Assembly: GCA_030619985.1 (NCBI GenBank)
Contig: JAUXAI010000061.1
Coordinates: 1-6,316 of the forward strand
Reading direction: 5' to 3'
From: a bacterium
Lineage (GTDB): Bacteria > UBP18 > UBA7526
DNA: 6,316 bases
Part shown: one piece after another, positions 1 through 3,629 of the stretch
How positions within the stretch are numbered: the stretch's first letter is position 1
Layout of the letters: every line of letters begins with the position of its first letter
Notes under the pieces: generated by a model
Database searches by the model: none
What the model was told of the DNA's origin: nothing
Seen by the model: the letters and a program-made list of their open reading frames with translations, nothing else
Translations under genes and position numbers: made by a program

Positions 1-395
1 TGGAGTAATGCCTTTGTTGCTCCACCTTTCTTCTCAAGGATATCTGGTTTAGTGGCCAGAACCTGGAGGAGGGCCTGGAACTCCTCCATCTCTAGGCCTC
101 TGAGGAAGGTAATGCTCTGAATTTTCCGGCTACTTAAGTCAAAGTTAAATTTGATGAATGTCTTATCTCTCTCCTCCAGCGAGAGGTCCTCTACCACCAA
201 TTTATTCTCAACGACGCTTATCGTTAAGTCCCTCTCCTTCTTCAGGTAATCCCTTAGTTCCTGATAGGAGGCCTTTAGGGGGCGGGCGATCATGGGATGC
301 TTAGCAGGATAGATGCCCATATCGGTAATGACGATGTGGAGTTGCTTGATGAGATGACTGGCCCATTCCTTGAGGTGTGATTTATCAAATTTCAC
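1..395 (-). CDS. Conserved protein of unknown function, N-terminal part (truncated by window edge)
   Basis: An open frame of 131 complete codons starts at GTG (395..393) and runs off the left edge without a stop. The start is supported by AGGAGG at 407..402, 6 nt upstream. The protein begins MKFDKSHLKEWASHLIKQLH and continues with a 'YPAKHPM' stretch near residues 29-35, then 'LTISVVENKLVVEDL' near residues 57-71 and 'FLRGLEMEEFQALLQVLA' near residues 97-114. From memory, this layout (amphipathic helix, Y-P-x-x-H-P, a beta pair, then a helix scored as 'Glu-Glu-hydrophobic') resembles the N-terminal segment seen ahead of HEAT-repeat or HD/HD-GYP domains in many environmental bacteria, but the deciding C-terminal part lies outside the window. 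No signal peptide or membrane segment is visible. Its GTG overlaps the stop of the preceding 36-codon ORF (GTGA) and its ribosome site lies in a hairpin arm. The coding call is firm; the family is tentative. Confidence 0.75.
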   Translation of the reverse strand, partial: MKFDKSHLKEWASHLIKQLHIVITDMGIYPAKHPMIARPLKASYQELRDYLKKERDLTISVVENKLVVEDLSLEERDKTFIKFNFDLSSRKIQSITFLRGLEMEEFQALLQVLATKPDILEKKGGATKALL

Positions 396-502
396 CCCGC
401 CCCTCCTTTCGTGGTCAGGCAAATAATTTTTATAAAGAGAAAATCCATCAGTTCAAGTTTTTTAATCTCAAAATTACCAATTTTGTGAGGGGCGGGGTTC
501 AT
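392..502 (-). CDS. Possible 36-residue leader peptide ORF
   Basis: ATG at 502..500 is preceded by AGGAGG at 513..508 with a 5-nt gap, the best ribosome site in the window. The frame runs 36 codons to TGA (394..392), overlapping the GTG of the next gene by 4 nt (GTGA). The ATG overlaps the stop of the small membrane-like frame upstream (ATGA). The product begins MNPAPHKIGNFEIKKLEL, has a mildly hydrophobic middle (MDFLFIKIICL) and ends in a Gly/Ala tail. I recognise no family. Codons 2-5 form one arm of an inverted repeat whose other arm covers the next gene's ribosome site, so its role may be translation itself rather than the peptide. Against a real gene: the interior is A+T-rich, contains a promoter-like sequence, and such a short frame could be chance. 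Confidence 0.4.
   Translation of the reverse strand: MNPAPHKIGNFEIKKLELMDFLFIKIICLTTKGGAG
394..498 (-). promoter_or_regulatory. Inverted repeat sequestering the ribosome site of the left-edge gene
   Basis: ACCCCGCCCCTC (394-405) and GAGGGGCGGGGT (487-498) are perfect 12-bp inverted repeats, almost all G:C, around an 81-nt A+T-rich loop. In minus-strand RNA the 3' arm contains the GAGG of the Shine-Dalgarno sequence (AGGAGG at 407..402) and the first two bases of the GTG start. The 5' arm begins directly after the ATG of the 36-codon ORF. Ribosomes on that ORF would melt the stem. There is no U-run after the 3' arm, so it does not read as an intrinsic terminator. An alternative is a miniature inverted-repeat element, but I see no convincing target-site duplication. 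Confidence 0.6.
429..456 (-). promoter_or_regulatory. Candidate sigma-70-type promoter for the left-edge gene
   Basis: On the minus strand TTGAAC (456..451) and TATAAA (434..429) are separated by 16 nt. The -35 matches TTGACA in its first four bases, and the -10 matches TATAAT at five of six. Initiation would be expected near 422, giving a leader of about 27 nt that keeps the AGGAGG (407..402) but lacks the upstream arm of the inverted repeat. The surrounding stretch is distinctly A+T-rich, so a chance match is possible. Confidence 0.4.
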
Positions 503-628
503 TTCTTCCTCCTAGACTCCACCCTCTTCTGCACCAGAATAAAGAGGCCATAGATGATAATGATTTGACCAATGACGAATAATTACTAAAAGTACGCAAG
601 GAAGGCGAAGATTTCTACGCTTTTTATG
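499..628 (-). pseudogene. Remnant of a small single-span membrane protein, interrupted by TAG-TAA
   Basis: One minus-strand frame downstream of valS reads VEIFAFLAYF, then two consecutive stops (TAG 588..586, TAA 585..583), then LFVIGQIIIIYGLFILVQKR followed by VESRRKK and TGA (501..499). The second part is a textbook membrane helix with a positively charged C-terminal tail. The first part is also hydrophobic and ends in an aromatic pair. Upstream in this frame there is only ATA, no ATG/GTG/TTG, and after the stops the only early candidate is a rare ATT without a ribosome site. A single base added in the TTTT run would read through the stops as FLVII before the frame shifts again. I read this as the decayed gene of a ~40-residue membrane protein. 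Its TGA overlaps the ATG of the next small ORF, which suggests it was once translated. A chance frame cannot be excluded. Confidence 0.4.
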
Positions 629-629
629 T

Positions 630-3629
630 TTACCTTCTGCGCTTTTGCCCTTCGGATCCTGAAGGATCCTCAGGATCCTGAACGGGCGGTTGCAGACTTT
701 TAAAGTTCTTTCTTAATCTTTTTAATCTCTCCTTAAGCTCTCGTTCCTTTTCTCTTTCCTTAACAATAACCGCTTGGGGAGCTTTATTCAAGAAGTCCCT
801 GCTCTTCAATTTTTCTCTCGCCCTTCCCAATTCTTCTTCTACTCTACCCATCTGCTTTTTCAGGCGCTTTCTCTCTTTCCCCAGATCGATCAATCCTTTA
901 AGGGAAACCCAGGCCTCTATCTCACCGATTAGGGCACTGGCGGAGGGAATAGGCTTCTCGACATCGGGACCCATCTCTATCTTAGATACCCGGGCAAGGT
1001 TCCTAATATAAGTAGCATTTTTCTCTAAAGTCTTCAGCTGGTCTTTCCCCTTTATCTTGAAAAAAGCCTCTATCTTCTTCTGGGGAGCGATTCCCATCTC
1101 TGATCTAATATTCCTGATTGATGTGGTAACCTCTATGACAAGAACCATCTCCTTCTCTATTTTAGTATCTATTCTCTTCTTATTAACTTTTGGCCAAGAA
1201 GAAACCATTATGCTATCCAATCTGCGGTCATCTGCGCCTGCCTCGTCGGCAGACAGGTTTATATCTGCGGTCATCTGCGTATGGCGCTTCAGCGCCTGCC
1301 ATATTTCTTCAGTGATAAACGGCATAAAAGGATGGAGGAGCCTTAATGTTCCCTCTAAGACATGACACATCACATACTGCGCAGTCTTTTTCTCCGAACT
1401 CCCCGCCGAAGGCGAGGTCTCGCCCCCTTGGGGCGGACGAACTGTAGACTCCGAACTGTGATAAAGTCTGGGCTTTATCATTTCTAGATACCAATCACAG
1501 AACTCATGCCATATAAACTGGTATAGAGTTTGGACTGCTTCGCTTATCCTGTAATTCTCAATGGAATCTGTGACCTCTTTGACAGTTCTGTTATATCTGG
1601 AAAGAATCCACTTATCCGTCAAGGTCAAACTGGAATCTAGGATCTGGGATCTAGGATCTAACTTAAAGCCTTCTAAGTTCATGAGGACGAAGCGGGAGGC
1701 GTTCCAGATCTTATTGGCAAAATTCCTACTGGAGATGAATTTCTCATTGAATAGCTGTAAATCCTGTCCCTGGGCGCAAGAAGAGGCTAAAGCGAAACGT
1801 AGGGCATCCGTTCCATATTTAGCAATAATGTCTAAGGGATCGATAACATTCCCTAAGGATTTACTCATCTTCTTCCCCATCTTGTCCCGAACAATGCCAT
1901 GAATGTAAACTTCGCTAAAAGGTATATCATCCATTAATCTCAGTCCCATCTTGATCATCCTCGCCACCCAGAGGTGGATGATTTCATGGCCCGTAATTAA
2001 AAGACTTGTAGGATAGAAGTATGCTAAATCCTTTGTCTTCTTTGGCCAGCCAAGGGTAGAGAAGGACCACAAAGCGCTGCTAAACCAGGTATCTAAAACA
2101 TCTGTTTCTTGAATTAAATTTTTTCCTCCACAAATAGGACATTTTTCTGGTTTTTCCCTAGAAACTATTGGAACTGCATTTTTAGGAAGAGAAACTATAG
2201 TTTCCAATCTTTTCAAAATTTCCTTATGTGTATATCCTTTATGTGTACGCCCATAACTTCGTAGGGCTGAGTATGTTCCATGTGTTGGTTCTAAATCTTC
2301 GGGCGTCCTTTTTGTTAGAAGAAGCTCAAGTCTTTTTCCAATGCAATTTCCACAATACCAAGCAGGAATTCGGTGTCCCCACCATATCTGCCGGGAAAGA
2401 CACCAATCTCTCAGGCCTGCCATCCAATCCAGATAGACCTTCTCCCACCTCTTGGGAATATATCTTATCCTTCCCTTTTTTACTACCTCAATGGCTGGCT
2501 TCGTCAATTCTTTAACTTTTAGAAACCATTGAAGAGAGATCAAGGGTTCAATGGGCGTAGAGCATCTATAACACCTTCCCACAGGAACAGAATAATCCTC
2601 TTTCTTCTCCAGATAGCCCTCTTTCTCTAAATCTTCAAGAAGCCTCTTTCTACATTCATACCTATCCAATCCCTCATACTTCCCGGCCTCTCTGGTCATC
2701 CTTGCGAAAGTGTCTATGATTCTTACCTCAGGAAGTTTATGCTTCCTTCCTATCTCGAAGTCATGGGGGTCATGGGCGGGAGTGATCTTCACTGCTCCAG
2801 TACCAAATTCGGGATCAACATAATCATCAGCGATGAGGGGTATCTTCCTATTCATAATGGGGAGGATAAGGGTCTTGCCTATCAAACCCTTGAACCTCTT
2901 ATCCTTAGGGTTGACCGCCACTGCAGTATCGCCGAGCATAGTCTCTGGTCTGGTGGTGGCCACAGTAATAAAAGCAGGTGAGCAGGTGAGCAGGTGAGCA
3001 GGTGAGTTGGGCTTGAAGAAGTATTTAATGTAGTAGAGGTAGCCCTTCTCTTCTTCGTGTTCCACCTCAATATCAGATAAAGCGGTCTGGCACCTGGGGC
3101 ACCAATTTATGATGTATTCATCCCTATAGATCAGGCCCTTCCTATATAGCCTGACAAAGGTCTCGGTTACGGCTTCAGAGCATCCCTTATCCAAGGTGAA
3201 TCTCAATCTTTCCCAGTCGCAGGAGCATCCTAATCTCCTCAATTGCTCGATAATTCTATTTCCGTATTTCTCTTTCCACTCCCAGACCTTTTTTACAAAC
3301 TTCTCTCTTCCCAGATCAAGCCTACTCTTCCCCTCTTTCAGTAGCTCCTTCTCCACAACATTCTGGGTAGCGATCCCCGCATGGTCGGTTCCAGGAATCC
3401 AGCAGGCATTGTAGCCCTCCATCCTTTTATATCTAATCAGAATATCCTGCAGGGTATTATTCAGGGCATGGCCCATATGTAAGGACCCAGTGATATTGGG
3501 AGGAGGGATGACCATGGTAAAGGGCTTTTTCTTTTTATCTACTTCAGCATGGAAGTAGCCCTTATCCATCCAGTATCTATACCACTTCTTCTCCACTTCT
3601 TTTGGTTGATATCTAGTCGGTATGGTCAT
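630..3629 (-). CDS. valS: Valyl-tRNA synthetase (class I) with repeat-derived insertions
   Basis: Charges tRNA-Val with valine using ATP in the cytoplasm and hydrolyses mischarged threonine. Class I signatures are complete: HMGH (51-54) in PPPNITGSLHMGHAL, KMSKS (587-591), DWCLSRQIWWGHRIP (408-422) and LDTWFSSALWSFSTLGWP (512-529). The editing domain starts around TTRPETMLGDTAVAV (225-239) and includes GTGAVKITPAHDPHDFE (276-292). Cysteine pairs are C177/C180, C353/C356, C426/C429 and C497/C500. An anticodon-binding domain follows (about 670-820), then a charged coiled-coil tail (about 910-978). The ATG at 3629 has AGGAAG 5 nt upstream, overlapping the stop of the preceding transporter gene, so translation is probably coupled. 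At 999 residues it exceeds the usual ~860-950; extra stretches at 207-220, 430-490, 657-666, 725-746, 784-804 and 983-992 coincide with repeats or palindromes in the DNA. All signature motifs survive, so the enzyme is probably functional. Confidence 0.98.
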   Translation of the reverse strand: MTIPTRYQPKEVEKKWYRYWMDKGYFHAEVDKKKKPFTMVIPPPNITGSLHMGHALNNTLQDILIRYKRMEGYNACWIPGTDHAGIATQNVVEKELLKEGKSRLDLGREKFVKKVWEWKEKYGNRIIEQLRRLGCSCDWERLRFTLDKGCSEAVTETFVRLYRKGLIYRDEYIINWCPRCQTALSDIEVEHEEEKGYLYYIKYFFKPNSPAHLLTCSPAFITVATTRPETMLGDTAVAVNPKDKRFKGLIGKTLILPIMNRKIPLIADDYVDPEFGTGAVKITPAHDPHDFEIGRKHKLPEVRIIDTFARMTREAGKYEGLDRYECRKRLLEDLEKEGYLEKKEDYSVPVGRCYRCSTPIEPLISLQWFLKVKELTKPAIEVVKKGRIRYIPKRWEKVYLDWMAGLRDWCLSRQIWWGHRIPAWYCGNCIGKRLELLLTKRTPEDLEPTHGTYSALRSYGRTHKGYTHKEILKRLETIVSLPKNAVPIVSREKPEKCPICGGKNLIQETDVLDTWFSSALWSFSTLGWPKKTKDLAYFYPTSLLITGHEIIHLWVARMIKMGLRLMDDIPFSEVYIHGIVRDKMGKKMSKSLGNVIDPLDIIAKYGTDALRFALASSCAQGQDLQLFNEKFISSRNFANKIWNASRFVLMNLEGFKLDPRSQILDSSLTLTDKWILSRYNRTVKEVTDSIENYRISEAVQTLYQFIWHEFCDWYLEMIKPRLYHSSESTVRPPQGGETSPSAGSSEKKTAQYVMCHVLEGTLRLLHPFMPFITEEIWQALKRHTQMTADINLSADEAGADDRRLDSIMVSSWPKVNKKRIDTKIEKEMVLVIEVTTSIRNIRSEMGIAPQKKIEAFFKIKGKDQLKTLEKNATYIRNLARVSKIEMGPDVEKPIPSASALIGEIEAWVSLKGLIDLGKERKRLKKQMGRVEEELGRAREKLKSRDFLNKAPQAVIVKEREKERELKERLKRLRKNFKSLQPPVQDPEDPSGSEGQKRRR
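654..681 (-). repeat. Three GGATCC palindromes in the valS C-terminal tail
   Basis: GGATCC occurs at 654-659, 664-669 and 673-678, and the last sits in a perfect 12-bp palindrome TCAGGATCCTGA (670-681). It encodes residues 983-992 (VQDPEDPSGS), just after the coiled coil, where ValRS proteins normally end. Confidence 0.8.
1220..1296 (-). repeat. 17-bp direct repeat with two hairpins inside valS
   Basis: ATCTGCGGTCATCTGCG occurs exactly at 1220-1236 and 1263-1279 and is itself a doubled ATCTGCG. Between the copies is the stem CTGCC/GGCAG (1238-1242/1248-1252). Just beyond is GGCGCT/AGCGCC (1283-1288/1291-1296) with a 2-nt loop. Together they encode about residues 778-804, including TADINLSADEAGADDRR, which replaces the short link expected between EEIWQ and SIMVSSWP. 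Confidence 0.85.
1392..1457 (-). repeat. Palindromic insert bracketed by 9-bp direct repeats inside valS
   Basis: CTCCGAACT is present at 1392-1400 and 1449-1457. Between them is a G+C-rich block with two short stems: CGCC/GGCG (1404-1407/1411-1414) and CGCCCC/GGGGCG (1421-1426/1430-1435). One direct repeat plus the block is 57 nt, exactly 19 codons, so its gain keeps the frame. It encodes residues 725-746, a polar stretch that begins and ends with Ser-Ser-Glu because of the direct repeat. Confidence 0.8.
1632..1659 (-). repeat. 7-bp tandem repeat, four copies, inside valS
   Basis: GGAATCT, AGGATCT, GGGATCT and AGGATCT follow each other without gaps (consensus RGGATCT; the first copy differs at one base). 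They encode residues 657-666 (LDPRSQILDS), between the end of the catalytic region (NLEGF) and the anticodon-binding domain (TDKWILSRYN). Confidence 0.85.
2191..2204. repeat. 14-bp perfect palindrome within the valS zinc-region insert
   Basis: GAAACTATAGTTTC reads the same on both strands. It lies in the A+T-rich insert that encodes residues 430-490. A near copy of its first half (GAAACTATTGG) starts at 2161, and TTATGTGTA occurs twice nearby, around 2224 and 2239. Confidence 0.6.
2974..3005 (-). repeat. 8-bp tandem repeat, four exact copies, inside valS
   Basis: GCAGGTGA is repeated four times without error. On the coding strand it encodes residues 209-219 (SPAHLLTCSPA), immediately before the TTRPET editing-domain motif. 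Because 8 is not a multiple of 3, gain or loss of one or two units would shift the valS frame; only changes of three units would be neutral. Confidence 0.95.

Follow-up and report, generated by a model that had tools for sequence, protein, structure and literature searches.

A MITE-like palindromic element at bacterial start codons that probably rebuilds the ribosome site and start of the gene it enters

The gene at the left edge of the window (the whole stretch of DNA analyzed, 6,316 nt) is preceded by a hairpin and a 36-codon ORF, which raises the question of whether this arrangement is a device of that gene and, if not, how it came to be there. All coordinates of the arrangement refer to the minus strand. 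The hairpin arms, at positions 394–405 (ACCCCGCCCCTC) and 487–498 (GAGGGGCGGGGT), are perfect 12-bp inverted complements. The small ORF (positions 392–502) begins with the ATG at 502 behind a good ribosome site, AGGAGG (positions 508–513), and its TGA stop (394–392) overlaps the GTG start (395–393) of the next gene; a second Shine–Dalgarno sequence, AAGGAGG (positions 402–408), lies partly within the stem, 6 nt 5′ of that GTG. The downstream gene (positions 3–395) encodes a long protein, cut here by the contig end, and has an open frame of hundreds of codons in genome G002; it seems to run on into contig C39. The original prediction was that a ribosome reading the small ORF as a leader would open the stem and so arrive at the start of the gene, and the repeat, the leader with its ribosome site, and the stop/start overlap were all present as it described. 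When the minus-strand RNA from 515 to 370 was folded, the stem formed, with a predicted energy of −36.7 kcal/mol (z = −2.35), and 6 of 200 shuffled sequences folded as well, suggesting that the stem by itself is only moderately unusual. The repetition of the whole segment, on the other hand, is far beyond chance.

Segment 391–515 (query window 360–560) recurred in the same genome in three further copies with 77–80% identity, located before unrelated genes, together with weaker ones. The outer sequences followed the pattern TGAA-YCCCGCMCCTY...RAGGKGCGGGR-TGAA, with strongly GC-rich ends enclosing an AT-rich loop. When an interior of 70–100 nt was allowed, this end pattern yielded 15 copies in the same genome and 24 in five relatives of its own family, with 0 for the reversed control in both cases; in 1.25 Mb there were 15 strict copies and 157 half-ends, the reversed control giving 25 half-ends. 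A scan of GTDB genomes produced at least 106 stretches, and the matches listed, which do not form a random sample, included, by record name, Omnitrophota, Planctomycetota, Elusimicrobia, Acidobacteria, Deltaproteobacteria, and unclassified bacteria; those from Acidobacteria and Deltaproteobacteria, single per genome among those listed, may be chance matches. A slightly different form of the pattern matched in 24 of 25 such genomes, with up to 20 copies in each (control, 0). No copy was found by end pattern in 54 unrelated, distant genomes or in viral contigs, nor by blastn in plasmids and phages. The comparisons below use 128 distinct copies flanked on each side by TGAA; they come from the genome's own family, Omnitrophota, Planctomycetota, and a few others, and their loops fall into 66 unrelated clusters.

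The element typically measures approximately 100–120 bp, with terminal inverted repeats of 11–13 bp and a 4-bp target duplication, mostly TGAA. In the window, its 103-bp body (positions 395–497), recognized from the repeats with the same ends in this genome and its relatives and from an empty site in genome G003, is bounded by the left terminal inverted repeat CCCCGCCCCTC (positions 487–497, the 5′ arm of the hairpin) and the right one GAGGGGCGGGG (positions 395–405, the 3′ arm). Terminal inverted repeats, a target duplication, and many dispersed copies with no internal transposase gene are all present, as in a miniature inverted-repeat transposable element (MITE). Elements of a shorter class with the same ends (approximately 49–63 bp; G000 contigs C1, C3, C6, and C10, among others) occur in some cases on start codons and in others at intergenic positions, where TCAA or TTGA is duplicated. 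In L067, L076, L083, and other copies from Planctomycetota and Omnitrophota, the ends reach inward to CCTTCTNNATATTCA, and this bipartite end may be a candidate binding site of the mobilizing enzyme. An apparent whole tRNA gene (CTT anticodon by eye) lies in the loop between two element ends at G004:C25:9200–9304. The element pairs L010/L055, L101/L162, and L051/L053 are 95–99% identical, even though silent sites in the neighboring genes differ extensively (L101/L162: 98% identity, with differences at 28 of 57 four-fold sites of the adjoining gene), which may reflect constraint or recent exchange.

The insertion itself can be read from sites with and without the element. In G003, the gene begins ATGATTAATAAATTGCACCTC behind AGGAGAAAGAG, i.e., with a plain ATG and its own ribosome site, and the locus reads AGGAGAAAGAGATG and then the gene, with neither hairpin nor small ORF; it is exactly this ATGA that the element interrupts in G000 and G002. 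The AGGAGG at 508–513, which now serves the leader, is thus the native site; in G003, the corresponding position is the gene's own ribosome site. A second pair of filled and empty sites was found for the MNLTITGRG gene (filled in G001 and G002, empty in G005) and a third for the MKELKGISASPG gene (G002 against G001), with one TGAA where the element is absent and two where it is present. The left copy in the window (positions 498–501) comprises the TG of the native ATG and the following AA, and the right copy (positions 391–394) supplies the last two letters of the new GTG start and, overlapping them, the TGA at which the leader stops. Some copies are flanked by TTCA, TCAA, or TTGA instead, indicating that these 4 bp come from the target. 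Nesting of one element inside another also occurs (L022). Furthermore, L063, before a hypF-like gene in G002, and L006, before an rfbB-like gene in G000, are the same element in opposite orientations, and the shared stretch takes in the first codons of the rfbB-like gene, suggesting that any stretch between two such ends is mobile (gene names such as these come from reading the translations, not from a database search).

Upstream of the element, positions 499–582 (minus strand) retain only the 3′ end of a small membrane-protein-like gene, whose stop (TGA) and the native ATG overlap as ATGA. Both G002 and G003 have an intact version that overlaps in the same way, which indicates that the element entered an overlapping junction and recreates one. 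In the window, only the remnant is left and adjoins valS, possibly through a rearrangement or an assembly join. The valS gene (window positions 630–3629) contains several in-frame repeat stretches, as if further small repeats had been inserted into the gene without disturbing its frame: atctgcggtcatctgcg twice at approximately 1225–1290, gagcaggtgagcaggtgag at 2975–3006, and aggatcctg at 655–685.

The copies lie mostly at gene starts: 119 of the 128 terminate precisely at the initiation codon of an ORF no shorter than 60 codons, and 111 have ATG as the left codon. A frame of that length begins at 13.9% of all the TGAA sites in a 284-kb sample, a figure that is an upper bound for real starts. 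This unbiased sample, made up of stretches of the largest contigs, contained 10 elements when no TGAA flank was required; 6 lay at starts and 3 elsewhere, and the remaining one was in the N-terminal part of an rfbB-like gene. An SD-like 4-mer precedes the left start in 73 of 124 copies, as against 30%, and every right end has an SD-like AGG together with a start codon. There was no clear excess at overlapping gene junctions (47 of 124, versus 9 of 32 likely real starts). The enzyme may prefer start codons, or copies may survive mainly there.

The leader frame provides evidence on what happens after insertion. It was free of stops in 53 of the 128 copies, compared with 8 and 10 for the other two forward frames. 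The element length was a multiple of three in 74 copies, of which 47 had open leaders, when 7.4 were expected from shuffled interiors. The excess persisted when each loop cluster was represented by one copy (25.4 of 66 open, versus 5.1 and 7.6 in the other frames and 6.9 expected), the length then being a multiple of three in 35.3 of 66. In 47 of the 128 copies, including that in the window, the leader stop exactly overlaps the downstream start. Leaders stop inside the element in 75 copies and 54 have lengths that are not multiples of three, so read-through of the leader is not obligatory. An open leader was more common when the upstream frame ends in the left TGA (25 of 47 versus 22 of 77; Fisher p = 0.008, kinship ignored). 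Among the orthologous leaders compared, changes were spread evenly over the three codon positions (15, 17, and 19), with 11 synonymous and 31 non-synonymous, and no selection on the leader peptide was seen, indicating that an open frame, rather than a peptide, is kept. These counts statistically support the view that selection keeps the leader readable.

The pairing of the two ends was also well maintained: end positions 1–11 pair in 91–100% of copies, with two-sided changes at position 1 (T-A in 59, C-G in 58) and position 7 (A-T in 97, C-G in 20). However, covarying arms may only reflect a transposon that moves as a unit and are alone no proof of an RNA stem. In ten copies, position 1 is C-A, the right end reading ATG while the left end keeps its C, consistent with a start improved by later selection at the expense of one pair. 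In the window mRNA, the predicted pairing over the SD region is 0.75, whereas the G002 copy has an A-C mismatch in the stem, and its mRNA is predicted to use other pairs. In the comparison of homologous loci proposed in the original prediction, G003 speaks against a device made for this gene, and in the orthologous insertion of G002 the small ORF is kept open with an imperfect stem.

Of the other explanations, that of a coupling device evolved in place for this gene fails almost entirely. Its hairpin, ribosome sites, and overlap are real, but the gene occurs in G003 without the stem or the small ORF, which means that the hairpin did not arise for this gene, and the same segment stands before unrelated genes. 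A vertically inherited cis-regulatory RNA family, similar to a riboswitch or attenuator, would account for orthologous elements that are more alike than the adjoining four-fold sites (L101/L162); it is nevertheless very improbable, given that the element has no Rfam match, that the downstream genes are unrelated, and that the loops form 66 clusters with a duplicated target and empty sites. We consider a mobile promoter or terminator comparably improbable: the AT-rich loop and strong GC-rich ends would suit one, but positions 330–720 contain neither a minus-strand promoter-like site nor a terminator-like site, and exact placement on the start codon fits translation, not transcription.

The strongest competitor, although still unlikely, is a passive start-codon element, in which the right end would act simply as an accessible ribosome site, with leader and hairpin idle, and copies would persist at starts because their deletion would remove the ribosome site and start codon of the gene. 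The leaders that stop in 75 of 128 copies, the SD-like AGG and start codon invariably present at the right end, and the occurrence of short copies (49–57 bp) at starts all agree with such an element. It does not explain the strong excess of open leaders and of lengths divisible by three in unrelated loops, nor the link between an open leader and an upstream overlap.

We therefore favor, as the probable reading, a MITE-like palindromic element that inserts into the start codon (ATGAA), rebuilds a Shine–Dalgarno sequence and a start, and lets the gene restart through a coupled leader. When the element enters that gene's ATGAA, its native ribosome site and ATG stay on the left and open a leader within the element, and the right end recreates AGGAGG...(G/A)TGAA, i.e., a new ribosome site and start codon, so that the gene product would be unchanged; the gene struck by the element probably keeps being made. 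The inverted repeats would pair in the mRNA and, according to the predicted fold, partly bury the new ribosome site. A ribosome reading the leader from the native site would then unwind the stem and stop at the TGA overlapping the new start, where initiation or re-initiation would follow. Because the leader frame is open far beyond chance while its peptide is unconserved, coupling through the leader, understood as a property of the element, appears to be the best interpretation. The original prediction is thus partly borne out: a device-like arrangement does exist, with family-level support from the leader-frame statistics, but judging from the copies and empty sites it is owned by the element rather than by the gene.

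Transposition was presumably carried out in trans by an enzyme recognizing the terminal inverted repeats. No transposase was seen between the same ends in the loci examined, and one 250-bp end pair in G065 has no obvious gene inside. As candidate mobilizers, DDE_Tnp_1 (PF01609) and the Y1 transposase (PF01797) were each rejected, being absent from several copy-rich genomes.

More tentatively, and with slightly less than even confidence, we suggest that these copies represent a class of transposable elements that spans phyla and has adapted to start codons; its members would duplicate the TGAA of ATGAA, have their interior translated from the native site, and leave the gene to a coupled restart, as a translational counterpart of self-splicing introns. 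If this is true, selfish DNA has a route into essential genes (by sequence, tsf, fmt, and ribosomal protein genes) that does not shut them down, with an element end that doubles as a ribosome site and a target TGAA that doubles as stop and start. The copies would also constitute a natural set of coupling leaders with unrelated interiors, ready for re-initiation tests, and gene-start calling would be affected in genomes of Omnitrophota and Planctomycetota.

No such start-codon element appeared in the open-licence papers searched, an absence that is weak evidence, and the words “start codon” and “ribosome” never occur in a 2024 review of bacterial MITEs (PMC10969869). Like the MITEs Correia/NEMIS, ERIC, RUP, and BOX, the present element is short and (nearly) non-coding, with terminal inverted repeats, a target duplication, many copies, and no internal transposase (PMC10969869); unlike them, it sits on start codons and rebuilds a ribosome site and start. 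Rickettsia palindromic elements are likewise palindromic, approximately 100–150 bp, tolerated in genes, and provided with an open frame, but they are in-frame fusions inside genes, and the peptide they encode is conserved (PMC10969869), whereas the leader here terminates at the start codon and drifts in sequence, so that neither in-frame fusion nor a conserved peptide is found. REP/REPIN sequences and their RAYTs (PMC3733652) resemble it in their many inverted-repeat units, thought to be mobilized in trans; they differ in that the element has no GTAG-tagged hairpins, makes a 4-bp target duplication, and is accompanied by no Y1 transposase in six genomes of its own family. IStrons, which combine a group I intron with an IS (PMC4227781), are also mobile DNA whose insertion is rendered harmless by a trick at the RNA level, but they splice out, whereas here the gene would be restarted by translation. 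In known translational coupling, a stop/start overlap is combined with a long-range stem over the downstream initiation region that is opened by the upstream ribosome (PMC6728339). The element shares the overlap of the leader stop with the downstream start, and its stem may similarly limit initiation until the leader ribosome opens it; the known cases, however, are native operon junctions (PMC6728339), whereas here a transposable element brings the arrangement with it.
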